Shown here: positions 2,677 through 13,516 of the stretch, piece after piece
Layout: every line of letters starts with the position of its first letter
Position numbering within the stretch: position 1 is the first letter of the stretch
NCBI GenBank assembly: GCA_018003315.1
Contig: JAGNEJ010000007.1
Span: forward strand, 1 to 64,000
Source of the DNA: Verrucomicrobiales bacterium
Lineage (GTDB): Bacteria; Verrucomicrobiota; Verrucomicrobiia; Verrucomicrobiales; V1-33
Direction: 5' to 3'
DNA: 64,000 nucleotides
Made by a program: the position numbers and the translations under genes
The notes under the pieces: generated by a model
What the model saw: only the letters and a program-made list of their open reading frames with translations
The model's database searches: none
What the model was told of the DNA's origin: nothing

Positions 2677-4185
2677 TCAGTCGGATGGCCGGAGGCGGGC
2701 GAGCAGGAAGCTTCCTTTTTCCGTGATGCGGTATTTTTGAAGGCGGCTGTTGGGTTTTCCGGGGATGGTGCGTTCGATGAGGCCAAGGTCGAGGAGCTGA
2801 TTTACCCGAAGGTTCAGTTTGCTGGAAATGCTGCCGTGCCCCAATGCCTTGGATAGTTCAGCTTTGGACAAAGTGGCATCACCGAGGCAGTCGATGATTT
2901 TTTGGGCAAGCGACTCTAGCCCCGACTCTAGCCCCGACTCTAGCCCCGACTCTAGCCCAAGCAGCGTTTTTGACTGGGCCCCTGACTGGGCCTCTGACCG
3001 GGGCCCGGTGCTGCTACTCGCGCGGGATTGTTCGCGGGAGAGAGGGAGTATTTCCGGCAGGGGCACGGTGAAACGGACGCGCCCGGCGCGTTCTTCGATG
3101 ATGGGTTCGGGGAGGTTTTCTGCGGCGGCCTGGCGGAAGATGCCGGGAATGCCGCTGCCCCATTGCTCGACGAGTTCGAGTTCACGGAAAACGCGGGCGA
3201 TGACCGGGTTGCGGATCTGGGAGACGCCTTGTCTGATGTCCTCGATGGTGAGGCCGGGGAGCAGCAGGCCGGGATTTTCGATCTCGATGCGGTTGTCAAA
3301 GAAGGCGACGCGGGTGGGGGAGCCGCGGTGCGAGTAGTCGGCATGGACGAGGGCGTTGATGATGACCTCGCGCAGAATCTTGACCGGGATGCTCCAAATG
3401 TCCTTGCGGCGGATTTCCGAAAAATCCGCGCCGCGCATGGCGTGCTTCTTGAGAAAGAGCATGATTTCATCGACGGCCCTGGGCAGCGGGTCCTGGATGT
3501 CGATGTGGTCGAAGATGTCGCTTTTGTCGTTGCCGATGAAGCGCCCGCACTGGACCCAGGCGTCGTCGAAATGCCGGCGGCGGTCCAGACCGTAGAGCAG
3601 GACACCGCCTTGGCTGGGGACGATGCGGCCCTGATCCGCGACGAGGATGCGGAGGCTTTGCAACATGCGTTCATCGACCGCCCTGCGACCTTCGAAATCC
3701 CGCTGGATGGCTTTCATGTCGAGGGCATCGGCGCTGAGGCCAGGCATGGGAATCGCGTCGAAGCTCACTCCGGCAACGCCACGCTGGAGTTCGGCGATGA
3801 GTTGGGCATCCGCCTGCCGGTTGGTGGAGCCGAGACGGATGTATGCGCCTTGTTCGATGCCTGCGGATTTCAGATAATGCGGGCGGGTGCCGCTGAGGAA
3901 AACTTCGACGGAAAGCAAGGTTTTGCCTTCCACGGTGGCGAGTTCGATATTCGGGACGAGTCGCGGGGAGATGGAATCGGCAATGAGGTTGGCCAGTTTT
4001 TCCTCCTCGTCGAGCGGGTCGGCGATGCCGATGATTTCGCGGTCATCGGTCACACCGACAACAAGACGCCCGCCAGCGGAGTTTGCGAAGGCGACGAGTG
4101 TTCTGAGCAAAGGGCCGGGGGACGAGAGGTCGCGCTTGAACTCAAGCGTCTTGCTTTCCGGGAGCTGGAGGATGGCCTCGATCAT
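2677..4185 (-). CDS. AlbA_2 (Schlafen-type) DNA-binding and GHKL ATPase-like protein
   Basis: This 502-residue protein has an N-terminal AlbA_2 domain (residues about 8-130, with ESKTLEFKRDL and FANSAGGRLVVGV), a central HATPase_c_4-type segment (EVIINALVHADYSHRG, about 265-330) and a C-terminal winged-helix region from about residue 430. Proteins of this build are usually annotated as putative transcriptional regulators or ATP-binding proteins and often sit in defence islands. A tandem of four GLES tetrapeptides (2911-2958) forms a linker between ATPase and winged helix. The gene starts 26 bp after a relic of the SNF2 helicase 3' end and stops 5 bp before the methylase start, so it occupies a slot between helicase and methylase. 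Its exact role is unknown; an accessory regulator or effector of the defence system is the inference. Confidence 0.85.
   Translation of the reverse strand: MIEAILQLPESKTLEFKRDLSSPGPLLRTLVAFANSAGGRLVVGVTDDREIIGIADPLDEEEKLANLIADSISPRLVPNIELATVEGKTLLSVEVFLSGTRPHYLKSAGIEQGAYIRLGSTNRQADAQLIAELQRGVAGVSFDAIPMPGLSADALDMKAIQRDFEGRRAVDERMLQSLRILVADQGRIVPSQGGVLLYGLDRRRHFDDAWVQCGRFIGNDKSDIFDHIDIQDPLPRAVDEIMLFLKKHAMRGADFSEIRRKDIWSIPVKILREVIINALVHADYSHRGSPTRVAFFDNRIEIENPGLLLPGLTIEDIRQGVSQIRNPVIARVFRELELVEQWGSGIPGIFRQAAAENLPEPIIEERAGRVRFTVPLPEILPLSREQSRASSSTGPRSEAQSGAQSKTLLGLESGLESGLESGLESLAQKIIDCLGDATLSKAELSKALGHGSISSKLNLRVNQLLDLGLIERTIPGKPNSRLQKYRITEKGSFLLARLRPSD
2911..2958. repeat. Four tandem 12-bp units encoding GLES repeats
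   Basis: The unit CGACTCTAGCCC occurs four times in perfect tandem. On the coding (minus) strand it gives four GLES tetrapeptides in the linker of the AlbA_2/ATPase protein. The length is a multiple of three, so copy-number change would keep the frame. Confidence 0.95.
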
Positions 4186-4210
4186 GGATGGAATGATGTC
4201 CGAATGGGGT

Positions 4211-4264
4211 TCAGATCGTGTTGGGCATCATCACGAACAGGCCGATGACATCGGGTGGGAGGAC
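4211..4264 (-). pseudogene. Relic of the SNF2 helicase gene 3' end
   Basis: This 54-bp stretch matches 5581-5634, the last codons of the intact SNF2 helicase gene, with only four mismatches by eye, and it still carries a stop codon (TGA instead of TAA). It lies immediately downstream of the methylase-start relic and 26 bp before the AlbA_2 gene. It marks the former junction of a helicase gene with the AlbA_2 gene. Confidence 0.9.
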
Positions 4265-4387
4265 TGACGGGTTTCCTCATCGTCCTTGGGCGCGGCGAGG
4301 CTGGCCACCATGGCGGCGGAGATCAAATTGCCTTCCAGCGTGAGCGAAGGCCATGCGGTGAGATCGGTGACGGGTTTGCGAGCCACA
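4260..4387 (-). pseudogene. Relic of the methylase gene 5' end
   Basis: About 128 bp here match 2545-2672, the first 42 codons of the intact methylase, with about nine mismatches by eye. The start codon position is GTG rather than ATG, and the frame runs into the helicase relic after residue 42. The five bases AGGAC (4260-4264) are shared by both parent sequences and form the join. Confidence 0.9.
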
Positions 4388-4389
4388 GT

Positions 4390-4426
4390 GGAAAAGGATG
4401 AATGTTGAAGGATGAATGTTGAAGGG
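4390..4426. repeat. Heptamer repeat (GGATGAA/TGTTGAA) in the intergenic region
   Basis: Alternating GGATGAA and TGTTGAA units resemble the two repeat inserts in the methylase gene. This copy is intergenic, between the methylase-start relic and the antitoxin promoter region. Confidence 0.7.
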
Positions 4427-4477
4427 CGAAGACCGGGCGAGCGGAGCATGAATCTTGCAATCAACCATAAATTGTTG

Positions 4478-4995: not shown

Positions 4996-5556
4996 ATGAA
5001 TGCGGATTTTCCGGTCGTCTTGGATGCCTGCGTGCTCACCAACCAGCGAGTGACGGACCTGCTGCTCCGTCTGGCGGAAACGCCGCGGCTTTATGTGCCG
5101 AAATGGAGCGCCCGGATTCTGGATGAGACGGACCGCACTCTGCTGAAGAATTTGAACTGGCCGGAGGATCTGGTGCACTACCGGCGCGAGCAGCTGGCCA
5201 CCCATTTTTCCGATGCCGCTGTGGATGGCTACGAGCCGATCGAGGAATGCCTGAAAAACGATCCGAAGGACCGGCATGTGCTGGCGGCGGCGATTCGGGC
5301 GCGTTGCGAGGTGATCGTGACCTTCAATCTCAAGGACTTCCCTGCCGAGGCGCTGACGGATTGGAATGTGGAGGTCCAGCATCCATCCAAGTTTCTTGCC
5401 AACCTGTATTCGCTGAATAGCGGACTGGTGGTGCAGCGGCTGCACCAGATCGCGGCGAATCTGAAAAAAACGGTTCCGGATGTGCTGGATGGATTGGTCG
5501 ACTTCGTGCCCGCGTTCGCCCTGCAGGTCGCAAGTGACTTGGGGATCGATTTGTGA
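4996..5556 (+). CDS. PIN-domain ribonuclease, probable toxin
   Basis: The 186-residue protein begins with a PIN fold (residues about 5-125). The usual acidic metal-binding residues are visible: D10 in VVLDACVL, E44 in ARILDETDR, D89 and D92 in NDPKDRHVL, with N111 in TFNLKDF. PIN toxins cleave RNA. The C-terminal 60 residues form an added helical region seen in some longer PIN proteins. The upstream HTH gene is the likely antitoxin. The gene ends 24 bp before the convergent SNF2 helicase stop. No obvious Shine-Dalgarno sequence precedes the ATG. RNA cleavage is inferred from the family. Confidence 0.85.
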   Translation: MNADFPVVLDACVLTNQRVTDLLLRLAETPRLYVPKWSARILDETDRTLLKNLNWPEDLVHYRREQLATHFSDAAVDGYEPIEECLKNDPKDRHVLAAAIRARCEVIVTFNLKDFPAEALTDWNVEVQHPSKFLANLYSLNSGLVVQRLHQIAANLKKTVPDVLDGLVDFVPAFALQVASDLGIDL

Positions 5557-5580: not shown

Positions 5581-8346
5581 TTAGATCGTGTTGGGCATCA
5601 GCACGAAGAGGCCAATGACATCGGGTGGGAGGACGGGTGCGACCGAGACGCGGGATGCGGAACCAGCGGCTGCGCGGAGGCGCGCATGGTCCTGCACGAG
5701 TTCGTCGGCACGCTGGCGGACAAAAGTGGCGAGCGGCCCGGCGAGGAGCGCGGGAAGTTCTTTCATGGTTTTACCGATGAATCGTTCTTGGGCGGAGGCA
5801 GCGAGGTTGGAAGTGGCTTCGGCGTGGAGCAGGGCGCGGACCTCCGCATCGATGGCGACGATTTCGTTTCCGTGGAGGGCGACTAAGGCAGCCTCCTCGG
5901 CGAGGAGCAGGCGCTCGCGGCGGGCATGGATGGTGAGTTTGTAGCGGATACGCAGCAGGGCGACGCGGGTGAGGCGCGGGACTGCTGCGGTTTCCCATGC
6001 GCCGACGCGACCGAGGCCGAGGTCAGTGAGGGATTCAGGATCGAGCGAAGCTTCGACCAAGGACTCGGCGAGAGTGGCGGTGAGCGGGTGCGTGCGGGTG
6101 AGCAGAGTGCAACCACTGGGGGCTGGCTCGGCAAGAGCAAGGCGGACCGTGCCGCTCAGGTCGTTTTGTTCGAGACGTTCGCGCAGGCCGTCATCGAGGC
6201 CGTGGATGTGGGCGAGAAGAAGGTTCTTCTTTGGCTCCAATGGCACGCCGAAGCGGGCCATGGCACGCTCGACAAAGAGCCGGGCATCCTCCGGTGAGCC
6301 AAGGAAGGCACGGGCTTTTTCCCACTCGGGTGCGACTTCCTGCGGTTTCATCGCATTCTGGGCGAAGCGGGCGCGGGATTTTTTTTCGTTCTCCATCGTG
6401 TCGCGCCATGTGGCCTCCATCGCGCGTGTGCTGTCGGAAAGGTGCAGGTCCAGCATGAGTTGCCCGGGGGTGTTGTGGCGCAGCATCATCGAGGCCATGA
6501 GCGCGTCGGTGACGGGACCACGTTCGTCGGGGAGCGGAACGGTGACGCCGGTGGCTTTGCGGATTTCCTCGGCCTTGCGCAGGATGACCTCGAGGACCGC
6601 GCCATCGATGGCACTGTCGGGCGAGAACATCATGATCGAGCGGACGATTTCGGCGGGTTGGCCGAAGCGATCCACGCGGCCCTCCCGCTGCTGGTGGCGC
6701 GTCGGGTTCCACGAGAGGTCGTAGTGGACGACGGTGTCAAAAAGCTGCTGGAGGTTGATGCCCTCCGATAGGCAATCGGTGGCGACGAGCAGGCACTGGG
6801 TTTCCTTTTCGTCCTCACCGGGAGCCATGTCGGCCACGCGGTCGCGGCGCTCGTCGGGGGTGAGCACACCGGTAACGGATTCGATGTGGAGCTTCGGGAA
6901 TGCCTTGCGCAAGCCATCGCGGACGTGGTCGGCGGTGGCGAGGAAGCGGCAGAAAACGACGGGATTTGCGCCCTTTTTGATGAGAGGTTTGAGCACATCG
7001 ATCAGGGCGTCGAGCTTGGGATCGGATGCCGTGACGAGTGTTTCGGCCTGCTTGACGAGAGCGAGGAGGGCGGGATCGGCGTTGAAGGGAGCACCGGGTT
7101 CTAGGTCCACGGCATCGTCATCATCCGCATCTTCGTCGTAGATTTGGGGTTCGAGGCGGCTGGACTCGTTGGCCATGCGGTTGCGCAGGGCGCTGAGGGC
7201 TGCAGCCGGTGAAGAGCCGACGCAGCGCATGAGGGCGAGCGTTCCCCAAAAAGCGAGACGACGCTCGTGCTGGCCAGTGCCCGCCTTGGCGACAACACCG
7301 AAGCAGTAGTCGAGAATGGCCTCGTGGAAAGCGAGGTGGGTGCGGTCGAGCCTGTAGGGAAACTCGGTGGTTTCATGTTTCGGGAAGGCGCGGTTTTCAT
7401 CCCACTCCCCTTCCACCAGATCGATGCGGCGGCGTTGCACAAAATGGCGGGCGAGCCGTTCCCGGTATTTGGCATCCTCGAAATTCAATGAGGAGAAATC
7501 GGGTTCGATCAGGGACAGCAAGCGGGCGAAGGCTTCTTCATCGCCGGAATGCGGGGTGGCGGTGAGGAGAATCAGGCGGCGCTCGGTGTCCTTCGCCAGT
7601 TCGGTCAGGAGGCCGAAGCGCTGTTGTTTTCCCGCGCCGGTGCCGACGCAGGCATGGACTTCATCGACGATGATCAGATCCGGGCAGGATCGGGCGAAGC
7701 CGTCGCGGCGTTTCTCGGCTTTGATGTAGTCGAGGCTGACGACGGTAAATGGATAGGCCTCAAAGAGTGACTGCGACACGGGCAGCGAGCGTTCCAAGCG
7801 CGCGGCGCTGCCGGAGGTGACAGCTACCGCCTTGATGCCGAAGCGTGTTTGAAGTTCGATGACCCATTGCTCGACCAAGTGGGGCGGGCAAAGCACCGCG
7901 AATGCCTCGACCTCGCCACGATCCATGAGTTCGCGCAGGATGAGTCCGGCCTCGATGGTTTTCCCGATACCGACATCATCGGCTATGACCAGCCTGGGAA
8001 CCGTAAGGCGCAGCGCCATGAGAAGCGGAACGAGTTGATAGATGCGCGGCTCAAAGGAGAGCTGGGCGGCCGAGCGGAATGGGCCGGCACCCCGGCGCAA
8101 TGTGAGACGGAGCGCGTCGGCGAGTAGGGCCGCCTTGGATTGCACGGTGATGCGGGCATCGTCAGGCAGATCGAAACGGGCTGGTTGAACCGGCGTGATT
8201 TCGAGCTTGGGATCAAGCAGGGTGGCATCGGTTTCCGTGCCGGAGAGGGGGCGGAGTTTCAGGAGATGCTCCTGCGGCGCAGGCATGGCGACCCACTCTC
8301 GACCACGGGCGCGGACAAGGTCTCCAGGGGAAAAGGTGCTGCTCAT
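5581..8346 (-). CDS. SNF2-type helicase, DrmD-like
   Basis: This 921-residue protein is a superfamily 2 helicase of the SNF2/RapA type. Walker A (ADDVGIGKTIEAGL) is near residue 124, motif II (IIVDEVHA) near 226, motif III (LLTATPHSG) near 260, and the C-terminal lobe has the arginine-finger motif REGRVDRFGQ near 555. An Asp-rich stretch (DEDADDDDAVD) lies around residue 407. The N-terminus (GDLVRARGREWV) and overall length resemble the SNF2-like DrmD helicases of class 1 DISARM, which act with a DrmMI methylase and DUF1998 proteins against incoming DNA. It starts 7 bp after the DUF1998 helicase stop, so both form one transcription unit. A degraded second copy of its last 54 bp is at 4211-4264. 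The DrmD assignment comes from recalled family resemblance, not a search. Confidence 0.88.
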   Translation of the reverse strand: MSSTFSPGDLVRARGREWVAMPAPQEHLLKLRPLSGTETDATLLDPKLEITPVQPARFDLPDDARITVQSKAALLADALRLTLRRGAGPFRSAAQLSFEPRIYQLVPLLMALRLTVPRLVIADDVGIGKTIEAGLILRELMDRGEVEAFAVLCPPHLVEQWVIELQTRFGIKAVAVTSGSAARLERSLPVSQSLFEAYPFTVVSLDYIKAEKRRDGFARSCPDLIIVDEVHACVGTGAGKQQRFGLLTELAKDTERRLILLTATPHSGDEEAFARLLSLIEPDFSSLNFEDAKYRERLARHFVQRRRIDLVEGEWDENRAFPKHETTEFPYRLDRTHLAFHEAILDYCFGVVAKAGTGQHERRLAFWGTLALMRCVGSSPAAALSALRNRMANESSRLEPQIYDEDADDDDAVDLEPGAPFNADPALLALVKQAETLVTASDPKLDALIDVLKPLIKKGANPVVFCRFLATADHVRDGLRKAFPKLHIESVTGVLTPDERRDRVADMAPGEDEKETQCLLVATDCLSEGINLQQLFDTVVHYDLSWNPTRHQQREGRVDRFGQPAEIVRSIMMFSPDSAIDGAVLEVILRKAEEIRKATGVTVPLPDERGPVTDALMASMMLRHNTPGQLMLDLHLSDSTRAMEATWRDTMENEKKSRARFAQNAMKPQEVAPEWEKARAFLGSPEDARLFVERAMARFGVPLEPKKNLLLAHIHGLDDGLRERLEQNDLSGTVRLALAEPAPSGCTLLTRTHPLTATLAESLVEASLDPESLTDLGLGRVGAWETAAVPRLTRVALLRIRYKLTIHARRERLLLAEEAALVALHGNEIVAIDAEVRALLHAEATSNLAASAQERFIGKTMKELPALLAGPLATFVRQRADELVQDHARLRAAAGSASRVSVAPVLPPDVIGLFVLMPNTI

Positions 8347-8353
8347 GGGTATG

Positions 8354-11300
8354 TCAGGATTTCAGGGAGGTGATGAGCGTTTCCGGCAAAACACCGCCGG
8401 GCTCCGTCGGCAACTCGAACAGGATCCAGCCCATGTCCTCGGCATACGCGACTGCGGTGCCGGTGAGAGGTTCGCTGACGGCGGCGACACGGTTGAGCCG
8501 CCAGACGTAGGGGAACCTCTGGCCGGCAAGGTCCGCTCCCGCGGCATCCGGTGCGGGAAGCTCTAATTGTTTGAAGGCCGCTAACCACCCGGAGTCGTCA
8601 CCGCTAGTCGCCGGAGTCCCGGTGAGACGGAGTTCTCCACGGGCAAGATCGATGAGCAACTGCTTCACCTCCGTGCTGGTGCGGTCGATCTGCTCGTGAT
8701 CGGGCTGGTTGTAGTAGGAGAGCAAACAGCGGTAACAGCCGCGCACACAGCTTTCGTGCCGATCCACGAGCAAGGCCGGATCACCAGCCGCAATCGCTTC
8801 GTCCACATGATCGAAGTGCATCAGTGCCAGCGCGGTGCGGGCCACACGGCGCAACGCATCGGCATCTTCGATCAACTGGCTCAGGACACCCGCCCCGCCT
8901 TCGGTCGCCTCGTAGGTGAGGATGGAGCGACGCTCGTCGCGCGATGGCAACGGTTCACCCAACACTTCGCCCTCCTCCAACTGAAACTCGATCTCGATGC
9001 CTCGCAACAGCGCATGCTGGACGGTGGCGATGGTTTCCAACTCGTGCTGCTCGGGATTGGTCAACCGGACCAGCAGGGCATTCTTGCGATCGCGCACGAT
9101 GGGCACGATACGCACCGGCCTGACGACATCGGGCGGCAGGTCAACGTCCGCAACCTCATCGTCGGACTTCGCCCAGTAGCCGGTGCGCGGGTCGATATTG
9201 AAGCCGAAAACCGTCTGATCACGGCGGCGTTTGAGTCCTTTGTTGATGCGGCTGATGTCCGCGCTGTTGGCATACTGGAGGGATAGCAGCACGCTGTCCC
9301 CGCAGCGGAACTCCGCCTCGGTCACTTCAAGGCGACCGTCCCGGCGCGGCCAGGAGAATACAGTCTGGATGTCGAAGCCCTGGCGGACGCGCTCCTCATC
9401 GTTGGCCGTGATCCTGTCAGCGGGAGCCGCCTCGACATTGTCGATGCGCAGGGTTCGCTGGATGGGGATCTGTCCTGCCATCGAGGCATCACAGGCATGA
9501 CAGCGCTCGATTTCACCCTCGTGACAGGCACCGCAATTCGGGCAGATGCAAATGTCCTGCGTGGCGAGTTCCGATCCATCACCGGTGCGGGCTTCCGGCG
9601 GGAGCTTGGCCTTCATCACGCGATAGGCGCGGCCTTCGTGGTAGATCAGGCTGCGCGGGCCGAACTCCGAGATAGCGAGGAAGCGGGCGCGTTGCAGGAA
9701 CGAGCCAGCTTTTCCTTCGCCAGGAATGAACGCGTAGAGCGGCAGGCGCGGGAAGTTGTAACCGGGGAGGAATCCCTCGGTGGCAAGGTAGCGGTAGGAA
9801 TAGAAGTCGGAGCCATTGCTCGCTCGGCCTTGCTCCAGAATGGCGATCTGATCCTGCGCCTGCATCTGGGCAGCCTTGATCTTCTGGCGATCCGCCCGAG
9901 ACAGACCGGTGATCATGGACTTGTTGTTGGCCTCGGCAAGCTGGCTGCGAGCTGAATGGTACAGCTCCCGCCAACGACCGAAGGCTTCGTCGAAACGATT
10001 GAGAGCTTGCTGGGCCACGGAATCGACAAACTCATCGACATTGCCGAGCCAACTGGGCCGGATCCCGTTCACAGATTCGAGAATTTGTTCGAGGATCTTT
10101 TTCATCGGAGTCCGAGCGGCAGCAGCAAGGCCTGGCTTACGGATCGTTTCGATCAACTCGGCTTTCAACGGGTAGCCCGCTTGGGAAAGATCGAGGATTT
10201 CAGGGATGTCCGGTGACAATGCCAGCTTGGACTCGGCCAGCCAGACGGCGTGGAGGTGAGAGCGCACGAGTTCCTCGTTGGTGATGTCGAGGGCCGGCGG
10301 GCGCACGACGCCCGAGACCATCTCGCTGCGGCGGGTGAAGAAGTATTGGTCGTGGGGAGACTGCGCCGCACAGTAGGTGACGATCACCGCCGCCTGACCA
10401 GAACGACCCGCCCGACCGGCCCGCTGCGCGTAGTTCGCTGGCGTGGGAGGAACGTTGCGCAGATAGACGGCGTTCAGCGCGGAAATATCGACACCGAGTT
10501 CCATGGTCGGGGAACAGAAGAGGGCGGGCAGAAACTGACGTGGCTCGCCAGCAGCCTTCATCTCAGTTGCATTGGCATCGAGGAGCTTGCGATCATCCTG
10601 CTCAAAGCGGAAGCGCCACTCCCGCCATTCCCGCTGCTTCTGGGATACTTGTGCGGTGTGCTCGCGGCTTTCCAGTCCCCAGTAGCTGCTGCGATTCTTT
10701 TTCAGGTCCTCGGCGATGGATGCGTAGAGACCGAGGAAGAAGGCATTTCCATCGGATTCCTGCCCCAAGGCGGCAGGCCCCGGCACAATCCGCGAAGCGG
10801 AGGGTTTCAGTCGCCAGCCCGCGAGATTGTTTTCCACCTGAATGGTTTCGAGATGGTCGCCTAGGATTCCGAGCAACCCTTCCATCACGGTTTGATAGTC
10901 AATCCGCGACAAGTGCGATCCGATCACCGAGATCCGATTGATCTGTCGCCCCAGACGCGATCCCGGACCGCCACGCAGGATGGTCCGTTCTTCTTGCAGG
11001 CCAACTTGATTCGCTCCGGGTGCCTGGAGGAACATGGTGGTGCGGCCCCGCAAGGGTTCCCTCGGGTCCATTGACCACGGGGCGCGCAACAGGCTCCTGG
11101 ATTTCTGGCTCACGCCGTCGAGCACGGTGAGATCCAGCGCTTCGGTATGCACGGCAAGACCCTGGAGGAAGAACTGAAGAATCGTGTGCAGTAAATCGCG
11201 CCGCTGATCCACGGAAAGATCGCCGAGTGATGGCAGAACGGCAGCGAACGCATCACGATCCTCCGCGAGTTCATCAAGGCCGGCGAACTCGACCTTGATC

Positions 11301-13516
11301 AGTCCCAGTTCGGCAAGACTGGGGTTCGTGTAACGCCAACCGCGCCGAAGATCGGTCCAGACTCGGTGCGCAAGCACCTTGGCCAGTGCCCGCTGTGCAT
11401 CCTCGCGAGTGACCACTCCCGCGTCGGACTCCAGCATCCAATGAACAAGGGCATCCCTGTTGTCCTTGGTGAACTTGAGCGCGCGGACTGTTTTCAGGCC
11501 GAAATCCTCTTCGGTGATACCATCGGAACCGGCATCCAAAACCGCGCGAAGGATCGCACCGCGAAGCAAGCTGACATAAAGGAAATCATTGAAGTGACCG
11601 GCTTGGAGAGCCGCATCCTGGCGATTGTCCGTGAAACCGAGCAACTTGCGTTTTTCGGGCGGCATCATGCTGTCCTCGCCATTCATCCATTCAAGCGCGG
11701 TCGAGACAAGCAGTGTGGTGGCCGAGCTTCGTCCTTCCCCGGAGAGGCCGGCCAGCTTGCTGCGCTCGCGCATGCTCGGATGCGGTGACTCGTGGCAGCG
11801 CGGGCAGAAACCGAACTTACCTGGGAGGAACCAAAACCCTTCACCGTGCGGATCATATCGGCCTGCCGGACTCACGTTCATGCGCTCGGGCATTCTGTCC
11901 TTGCGGTTGGCGCGCAGTCGTTCGATGCCGTTGCGCTCTTCTTTCCAGTCCTCGGGATAGGACTCGATGTCGCCATGGAAAAGGTAGTCGGGATCGTCGC
12001 CGCCAACGGGAACCAGATAACCTGCCGTATCCGCCTCGGAATCATCCTGTGGTGTGTCGTCAATGTTTCTCGGCAGAAACAGGATTTCGCCGTCCTCCTC
12101 GCTCTTCGAGACGATGTGAACTTCCTGACCACACCCGCGACAGAAGCGGGTGGGATACAGTCGGTGCCCGGGTGCCTGTGGATCTTCGAGCTGCCCCTCG
12201 AACAACACGCTGCGAGGACTTGGTGTCAGGGTGGTGTAAACTTCACCGGCACCAGAAATGAAACGGTGGAGCTTGAAGGCCAGAAATGCACCCGAACCGC
12301 TTCCTCCACGTTCGTTCTCGGGCAGGCTGACCCGTGTGAGAAAGCGCACGAACGCATCACGGCAGATTTCCGAATCGATCCCACTGTCGCCCGACAGCAT
12401 GGCCACTGCTTCACCGAAGGGGATGGGATTCTGCCGCCGAAGGTCCTGGCCGTCTTTGAGGCCAATGACCAGTTCCGCCCACACTGCAAGCGGATGGCTG
12501 CGCAGCGATTCATCTGTCAGAACCTCTGGGAGGTCTGCCATGAGAACCGGGCCAAGCTGCGGTTTGACTTGATCGATTGAGAGGGTGTCATCCGTGGCGC
12601 GTTGCAGCGACTCATCAATTACGGCGTCGGTTCCAACCGCGGTTCCGAAGAGCCGTGAAGCAACAGTGGCCACGGCCTGAGCCTTGCTTTCCTCCGAGCC
12701 CTCGCTGGCCATGGTGGCGGATGTGCCGATGCAGATCGGCACGTGATCCGGACAACAACGGTTCCGCAACCTGCGCACTAAAATTGCCACATCCGCCCCC
12801 TGCCGACCGCGATATGTATGCAGCTCATCCAGAACGATGAACTCAAGCCCCTTGGCGTTGCCGATAACCTCGGAGTCCAGCGGGTCCTGCCGGGTGAGCA
12901 ACAACTCGGCCATCATGAAGTTGGTCAGCAGGATGTCCGGCGGATGACTTGCGATCCTCTGCCGCTCCTCGCGGCTTTCCTGTCCGGTGTAGCGGGCGAC
13001 CACCGGTCTCACCGAATCGGGGAGGTCGGACTGGGAGATAAACTTGTTGATTTCCTTGATCTGGCTGTTGGCCAGGGCGTTCATCGGATAGATGATGATC
13101 GCCCGCGTGCGGCGTGGAGCACCTGATTGGAGTGCGCGCCCGATGGCGTCCACAATCGGCACAAAAAAACAGAGGGATTTTCCCGATCCCGTGCCGGTAG
13201 TAACGACGAAACTCTGGCCTGCTTTGGCTTTGGCGACGGATTGCGCCTGGTGGCGGTGGAGCCTCAACGGCGAAGCATCGAAACGAAAAATCTTGCCAGT
13301 GGCATCGTGCAGGTCGCCCGACTCGACCAACTCGTCGATGGATGGCCCAGATTTGTAGCGGGGATTCAGAGAGAGAAGGCTATCCGGCCAGAACCGACCG
13401 GCACCGTATTCCGCCTCGATGGTTTCCGACAAATCCTGTGACCTGATGCGGGTAAACGAGCGGGAAAAACTCGCATAGCGGTTGATCAGGTAGGTGTCGA
13501 AATCGAAGGCTTGCAT
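8354..13516 (-). CDS. Large DEAD/DEAH helicase with C-terminal DUF1998 domain
   Basis: The 1720-residue protein starts with a helicase core: Walker A (TTGTGSGKSLCF) near residue 109, DExH box (VLDELHTYRG) near 230, motif III (IGTSATMAS), and motif VI (YAQRAGRAGRSGQ) near 1030. A cysteine cluster (RFCRGCG) lies mid-protein and another (CPNCGAC...CHAC) near 1324. The C-terminus matches DUF1998, with YEATEGGAGVL and the CVRGCYRCLLSYY cysteines near 1592. In DISARM the DrmA helicase and DrmB DUF1998 protein are usually separate; here both functions sit in one chain, though helicase-DUF1998 fusions also occur elsewhere. It is the first gene of the operon and lies about 290 bp from tRNA-Pro. Functionally it probably moves on or unwinds foreign DNA; this is inference. 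Confidence 0.88.
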   Translation of the reverse strand: MQAFDFDTYLINRYASFSRSFTRIRSQDLSETIEAEYGAGRFWPDSLLSLNPRYKSGPSIDELVESGDLHDATGKIFRFDASPLRLHRHQAQSVAKAKAGQSFVVTTGTGSGKSLCFFVPIVDAIGRALQSGAPRRTRAIIIYPMNALANSQIKEINKFISQSDLPDSVRPVVARYTGQESREERQRIASHPPDILLTNFMMAELLLTRQDPLDSEVIGNAKGLEFIVLDELHTYRGRQGADVAILVRRLRNRCCPDHVPICIGTSATMASEGSEESKAQAVATVASRLFGTAVGTDAVIDESLQRATDDTLSIDQVKPQLGPVLMADLPEVLTDESLRSHPLAVWAELVIGLKDGQDLRRQNPIPFGEAVAMLSGDSGIDSEICRDAFVRFLTRVSLPENERGGSGSGAFLAFKLHRFISGAGEVYTTLTPSPRSVLFEGQLEDPQAPGHRLYPTRFCRGCGQEVHIVSKSEEDGEILFLPRNIDDTPQDDSEADTAGYLVPVGGDDPDYLFHGDIESYPEDWKEERNGIERLRANRKDRMPERMNVSPAGRYDPHGEGFWFLPGKFGFCPRCHESPHPSMRERSKLAGLSGEGRSSATTLLVSTALEWMNGEDSMMPPEKRKLLGFTDNRQDAALQAGHFNDFLYVSLLRGAILRAVLDAGSDGITEEDFGLKTVRALKFTKDNRDALVHWMLESDAGVVTREDAQRALAKVLAHRVWTDLRRGWRYTNPSLAELGLIKVEFAGLDELAEDRDAFAAVLPSLGDLSVDQRRDLLHTILQFFLQGLAVHTEALDLTVLDGVSQKSRSLLRAPWSMDPREPLRGRTTMFLQAPGANQVGLQEERTILRGGPGSRLGRQINRISVIGSHLSRIDYQTVMEGLLGILGDHLETIQVENNLAGWRLKPSASRIVPGPAALGQESDGNAFFLGLYASIAEDLKKNRSSYWGLESREHTAQVSQKQREWREWRFRFEQDDRKLLDANATEMKAAGEPRQFLPALFCSPTMELGVDISALNAVYLRNVPPTPANYAQRAGRAGRSGQAAVIVTYCAAQSPHDQYFFTRRSEMVSGVVRPPALDITNEELVRSHLHAVWLAESKLALSPDIPEILDLSQAGYPLKAELIETIRKPGLAAAARTPMKKILEQILESVNGIRPSWLGNVDEFVDSVAQQALNRFDEAFGRWRELYHSARSQLAEANNKSMITGLSRADRQKIKAAQMQAQDQIAILEQGRASNGSDFYSYRYLATEGFLPGYNFPRLPLYAFIPGEGKAGSFLQRARFLAISEFGPRSLIYHEGRAYRVMKAKLPPEARTGDGSELATQDICICPNCGACHEGEIERCHACDASMAGQIPIQRTLRIDNVEAAPADRITANDEERVRQGFDIQTVFSWPRRDGRLEVTEAEFRCGDSVLLSLQYANSADISRINKGLKRRRDQTVFGFNIDPRTGYWAKSDDEVADVDLPPDVVRPVRIVPIVRDRKNALLVRLTNPEQHELETIATVQHALLRGIEIEFQLEEGEVLGEPLPSRDERRSILTYEATEGGAGVLSQLIEDADALRRVARTALALMHFDHVDEAIAAGDPALLVDRHESCVRGCYRCLLSYYNQPDHEQIDRTSTEVKQLLIDLARGELRLTGTPATSGDDSGWLAAFKQLELPAPDAAGADLAGQRFPYVWRLNRVAAVSEPLTGTAVAYAEDMGWILFELPTEPGGVLPETLITSLKS

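Follow-up and report, generated by a model that had tools for sequence, protein, structure and literature searches.

The window analysed here, a stretch of 64,000 nt at the start of contig JAGNEJ010000007.1 of a Verrucomicrobiales bacterium, carries a defence operon resembling ARMADA Type I, in which the gap between the helicase gene armA and the methylase gene armB holds two accessory modules. Between these modules lies a short segment composed of a copy of the armB 5' end joined to a copy of the armA 3' end. We consider it probable that this segment is a non-functional recombination scar within the accessory-module slot of the operon, a judgement made jointly with that on its origin by fusion of two versions of the locus. 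All coordinates are positions in the window, loci collected for comparison are designated by L and a number, and C51 is another contig of the source genome. The segment comprises the following features:

4260..4387, minus strand: relic of the armB (methylase) 5' end, codons 1–42, with a GTG start at 4384–4386; 93% identical to 2545–2672
4211..4264, minus strand: relic of the 3' end of armA (helicase), its final 18 codons ending in the stop codon TGA; 94% identical to 5581–5634
4260..4264, no strand: join of the relics, a 5-bp microhomology AGGAC (GTCCT on the minus strand) common to both, located by alignment and join simulation

An initial annotation had placed both relics at these positions, with about 7% divergence from their intact counterparts, and had them joined at a 5-bp sequence present in both parents; repeat and whole-genome searches bore this out. 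The repeat search of the window paired 4257–4385 with 2542–2670 (methylase relic, 93% over 129 nt) and 4213–4264 with 5583–5634 (helicase relic, 94% over 52 nt), and the relics are the sole extra copies of the methylase 5' end and the helicase 3' end in the whole genome (E values of 2e-49 and 7.5e-16). Their overlap is exactly GTCCT/AGGAC, and at least 5 bp of shared sequence occurred in 1.0% of simulated random joins of the same two genes. Read on the minus strand, the gene order is helicase, convergent PIN/helix-turn-helix (HTH) pair, methylase relic, helicase relic, Schlafen/AlbA_2 gene and methylase.

Over 182 nt, the relics differ from the intact copies at 13 sites and show no insertions or deletions (indels). 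The methylase relic has a GTG instead of an ATG start, together with five synonymous and two non-synonymous codon differences, and the helicase relic has two synonymous codon differences, a Leu-to-Met replacement and the stop codon TGA. This stop is shared by all relatives examined, whereas the intact helicase gene of the window ends in TAA. An identical recent local duplication was ruled out by the 13 differing sites and by the ancestral stop codon in the helicase relic. The mostly synonymous differences, the lack of indels and the TGA stop, small as these numbers are, suggest instead that the join brought together two alleles that had already diverged while functional genes.

Directly after the join, stop codons are encountered in the relic frame, which argues against a functional role of the segment, for instance in promoting transcription or starting translation of armB or the Schlafen gene. 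A comparable element is also absent from the other occupied slots examined. Such a role, to which the retained armB-like GTG start and the location upstream of the Schlafen gene would lend themselves, appears very improbable. The methylase relic is adjoined by a further repeat element:

4391..4440, no strand: array of heptamer-type repeats (GGATGAATGTTGAA units) that separates the HTH promoter from the armB relic, belonging to repeat family D2, with related arrays within armB at 460–495 and 1212–1247

The two arrays of this GGATGAA type within the methylase are in frame, and L004 has different linkers at their positions. The exact 14-mer GGATGAAGGATGAA has only four occurrences in the genome.

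The core of the operon is formed by three genes:

8354..13516, minus strand: YprA/DruE-like DEAD helicase with a DUF1998/MZB domain (armC counterpart), the first gene of the operon by ARMADA Type I gene order; Pfam DEAD, Helicase_C and MZB; PADLOC DruE (5e-83)
5581..8346, minus strand: SNF2/RapA-like helicase (armA counterpart), intact, 921 aa, stop TAA; Pfam SNF2-rel_dom and Helicase_C; PADLOC DpdE (2e-188), DrmD and BrxHI; 93% identical to L004
1..2671, minus strand: armB, Eco57I/PglX-like N6-adenine methylase, first 890 codons; Pfam Eco57I and N6_Mtase; PADLOC DrmMI (1e-75), also PglX and type IIG models

Passages of Bell et al. (2025, PMC12458937) describe ARMADA Type I as a YprA helicase, a BrxHII/RapA-like helicase and a PglX-like methylase, in this order, and report that non-abortive phage defence was demonstrated for the Type II form. 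In the window, a YprA helicase with a DUF1998/MZB domain is likewise followed by a BrxHII/RapA-like SNF2 helicase and then by a PglX-like N6-adenine methylase, and the predicted core gene families and their order fit ARMADA Type I. The YprA-family protein has 1720 aa and DruE as its top PADLOC model; in its last 233 aa, Pfam models at E values up to 1 recognised MZB alone, and no match to a Vsr nuclease. We read the PADLOC labels DpdE, for the helicase, and DruE, for the YprA protein, as names predating ARMADA. As the model PDLC02853 ("DpdE") matches the armA helicase at 5581–8346 end to end (2e-188), the PADLOC library may mistake such loci for Dpd parts.

The methylase gene, which the initial annotation had called intact, leaves the window at the contig start; it is complete and open when followed across two contigs. 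After an exact 127-nt overlap it resumes at C51 54146–55591, which carries the remaining 481 codons, 42 of them in common with the window contig, so that the whole gene encodes about 1,329 aa in an open frame. The same overlap bears on the possibility that the scar is an assembly or library artefact, in which a PIN-bearing and a Schlafen-bearing strain of a metagenome were merged in one contig. The contig does appear to come from a metagenome (155 contigs, 2.56% contamination), and a search for a second record of the junction came up empty. However, an overlap of exactly 127 nt between neighbouring contigs suggests an assembly graph with k of about 127, in which a misjoin over 5 bp would be very unlikely and reads would have to span the join; moreover, both modules and all core genes are intact. 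We give an artefact very little credence. Directly downstream of the methylase, C51 48942–54139 (L142) encodes an AAA_13 protein (PADLOC candidate PDC-S46), an RNA ligase, a second SLFN_AlbA_2-HATPase protein and a ParA-like ATPase, and the locus accordingly sits in a larger defence island.

Two accessory modules are stacked in the armA-armB gap of the window, in agreement with the initial annotation:

4996..5556, plus strand: PIN-domain protein encoded convergently to armA, probably the toxin of a toxin-antitoxin pair; Pfam PIN_3; homologues 84% identical in L096 and 74% in L097/L098
4519..4977, plus strand: HTH_17 protein, probable antitoxin of the PIN pair; Pfam HTH_17; always adjoins the PIN gene in L096–L098
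4476..5578, plus strand: HTH/PIN module, delimited by its match to the free-standing copy of L096; blastn 80.7% over 1103 nt to L096 3708–4807, and boundary alignment
2677..4185, minus strand: bacterial Schlafen-type protein, probable RNase backup effector, co-directional with the operon; Pfam SLFN_AlbA_2, HATPase_c_4 and a C-terminal winged HTH (wHTH); 79% identical homologue in the L111 slot

Both modules consist of intact open reading frames, and one edge of the HTH/PIN module lies within 3 bp of the armA stop codon. As in type II toxin-antitoxin systems, a small DNA-binding gene and a PIN gene share one operon, and the pair is conserved in L096, L097 and L098, standing alone in the first of these; it is probably a toxin-antitoxin pair. 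The Schlafen protein (502 aa), in which the domain order SLFN_AlbA_2, HATPase_c_4 and wHTH is complete, is by these domains a probable RNase backup effector. Its gene contains a perfect 12-bp tandem repeat, CGACTCTAGCCC, at 2911–2958, which encodes LESG repeats before the C-terminal wHTH and whose copy number could be variable.

To place this arrangement among its relatives, 51 related loci from relatives, other genomes and plasmids were surveyed, the gap being measured from the helicase stop to the methylase start. Gap sizes were sharply bimodal: they ranged from -55 to 88 nt in 30 of the 51 loci and from 501 to 4892 nt in 18, and in the remaining three other genes followed the helicase before the contig or stretch ended. 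The cargo included YhcG/DUF1016, PDDEXK_4, DUF3800, AbiEii-like pairs, a second SNF2 helicase, AAA/DUF4143 with DUF6998, GmrSD_N (a GmrSD-like gene lies in the ARMADA slot of L108), Schlafen/AlbA_2, DUF4062-HATPase and several unknowns, as well as VapBC on an Acidithiobacillus caldus plasmid. Slot occupancy changed at least eight times on the helicase tree. Well-supported helicase clades contain loci with different cargo, sister loci included, and in one fully supported clade (L033–L037) the cargo differs in every member. These findings show that the armA-armB junction takes interchangeable cargo genes, and they strongly support the earlier suggestion that the gap is a swap slot for accessory modules. 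We lean, with some reserve, towards a wider proposal, in which the armA-armB junction of ARMADA Type I would be a dedicated exchange slot where the turnover of unrelated effector modules is much more rapid than that of the core; the shared core-gene flanks would permit swaps by ordinary recombination, and stacking when one end is joined illegitimately. The cargo in L043 (5658–10535) comprises a second SNF2-type helicase and an unknown 590-aa protein, 4.9 kb in total.

Loci with a single module at this junction, which the initial annotation had anticipated, were found for the PIN type as decayed loci, and for the Schlafen type, without PIN, in distant loci. L097 and L098, from two genomes of another genus, are decayed ARMADA loci in which the inverted PIN/HTH pair still stands between the armA 3' end and remnants of the armB 5' end, the order seen in the window. 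Their homology to the window is unbroken from armA through PIN/HTH (69.6% over 1433 nt), and the eight bases adjoining the armB start, TTTTCCAC, are common to both. The ARMADA remnants around PIN/HTH (L097 7460–9480, L098 986–3352) are flanked by direct repeats of about 100–270 bp, 90–93% identical, which recur elsewhere in L098; this arrangement suggests that the loci shrank by a repeat-mediated process from which the toxin-antitoxin pair alone emerged intact. A free-standing PIN/HTH pair in L096, from a genome of the same family (PIN 84% identical), indicates that the pair also moves alone. Schlafen/AlbA_2 relatives without PIN occupy the slots of L048, L051 and L111; the last has the 79% identical gene beside a DUF3800 gene, and its helicase is only 38% identical. 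Outside ARMADA, a Schlafen relative (74%) lies directly upstream of pglX in a BREX operon, between brxC and pglX (L133 7632–9110), and another (69%) directly upstream of a DUF1156 methylase in a DUF499/DUF1156 operon (L135 9640–11550); their position relative to the methylase is the same as in the ARMADA slot. Searches of viral contigs recovered neither helicase relatives nor the armB'-armA' scar.

Taken together, the arrangement probably originated by fusion of an armA-PIN/HTH-armB locus with an armA-Schlafen-armB locus over the 5-bp microhomology, with the segment as its scar. A break after armB codon 42 of the PIN/HTH version would have been joined to the Schlafen version at a position 54 nt ahead of the end of its armA, yielding a single intact armC, armA and armB together with both modules. 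The joined DNA might have come in from a related locus and, at its other side, undergone homologous recombination within core genes common to both; alternatively, deletion between tandem copies might have produced the join. In homology-facilitated illegitimate recombination, known from natural transformation, a long homology at one end and a few base pairs at the other add foreign DNA beside the resident sequence; in the window only the short-homology end is visible. A mosaic scan of armA and armB against L004 and L005 gave no clean breakpoint beside the slot. The alternative route would start from two complete tandem loci, of which the stretch from within the first armB to near the second armA end was deleted over AGGAC. 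A single deletion would give the observed product, a 5-bp microhomology is typical of such deletions, and the join is equally compatible with either route. Nevertheless, the genome has no second ARMADA copy, the relics having no other match and the methylase search finding this gene only, and no tandem ARMADA pair was seen among the collected loci. We hold this route to be possible and rather doubtful; its likelihood is a share of that given to fusion, not an addition to it.

In the resulting operon, the core would restrict unmodified or foreign DNA and mark self DNA, and the modules would act as independent back-ups that cleave RNA and stop growth. The inverted toxin-antitoxin pair would be driven from its own promoter, and the Schlafen RNase gene would be read with the operon.

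Several observations weigh against this origin. The slot is empty, with a 3-bp gap, in the two intact relatives nearest to the window, L004 and L005, whose helicases are 93% and 87% identical to that of the window. The PIN-only relatives are decayed loci, and no Schlafen-only close relative (above 60% helicase identity) was found among about 590 genomes searched. The helicase remnant of L097/L098 groups with the empty L005, to which it is nearer than to the window (81% versus 76%), so that there was either more than one insertion of PIN/HTH into the slot or a transfer between lineages; the insertion history of PIN is not one of simple descent. The initial annotation had predicted that each relic would resemble a single-module relative more than its intact copy, and this was not borne out: the helicase relic, over its short length, matches L097/L098 at 42–43 of 54 nt and the intact copy at 50 of 54, and the methylase relic has no overlapping counterpart in L097/L098, which lost that part. 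Furthermore, the relic-side changes A23S and P24A, in an otherwise invariant LIAPAMV stretch, the Leu-to-Met replacement and the GTG start would also fit drift after a local duplication. Finally, relics like those of the window were not found in 21 other occupied slots, where translated matches in GC-rich sequence produced only noise, and evidence of the mechanism is therefore limited to a single event and does not extend to the slot as a whole. What speaks for the proposed illegitimate recombination of PIN- and AlbA_2-type loci is the fit of the fusion to the observed arrangement.

Some of these observations would suit a different history, in which the slot itself was duplicated first. About 190 bp (the last 54 nt of armA, the 3-bp gap and the first 128 nt of armB) would have been tandemly duplicated over AGGAC in an ancestor with an empty slot such as that of L004 and L005, and HTH/PIN and Schlafen would then have entered one slot each. 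This course yields the same final order in a similar number of events, and some changes in the relic lineage are non-synonymous, as it would allow. On the other hand, functionless DNA that has diverged by about 7% over 182 nt and yet shows no indel, like the TGA stop kept from the ancestor, fits previously diverged alleles. The duplicate slots would also have had to receive one each of two unrelated modules with neither duplicate being lost, and orthologous-looking PIN/HTH-armB junctions are present elsewhere. Duplication followed by two insertions is thus less likely than fusion, and we consider it unlikely.

Embedded extra effectors are common in defence operons, and their gain or stacking is rarely visible in sequence; here both broken ends were kept, which makes the event readable. 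PIN, VapBC, Schlafen, YhcG, PD-(D/E)XK, GmrSD, DUF3800 and AbiE-like modules replace one another at a single defined junction of this recently described system, and the slot offers both a simple place to seek new effectors and a testable model of module exchange. The window operon shares with ARMADA Type I the three-gene order and the MZB/DUF1998 domain. It differs in that passages of PMC12458937 mention no accessory slot between armA and armB, which in the window is doubly occupied, and it may differ in the active C-terminal Vsr nuclease that those passages describe, which Pfam did not recognise in the window protein. Schlafen and PIN effectors within BREX loci are described as backup effectors in passages of PMC12839542, and the likeness extends to L133, in which the same Schlafen gene (74%) lies between brxC and pglX; here, in contrast, the host is ARMADA, the cargo junction is single and defined, and a scar of module stacking is preserved. 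GmrSD/BrxU within a BREX locus (passages of PMC12373910) is likewise a case of a methylase-type defence operon that houses another defence gene acting on its own, although the core system differs and those passages describe no fusion scar. Embedded backup effectors are therefore already known in BREX, and what is new here is the ARMADA slot together with a readable fossil of one stacking event.
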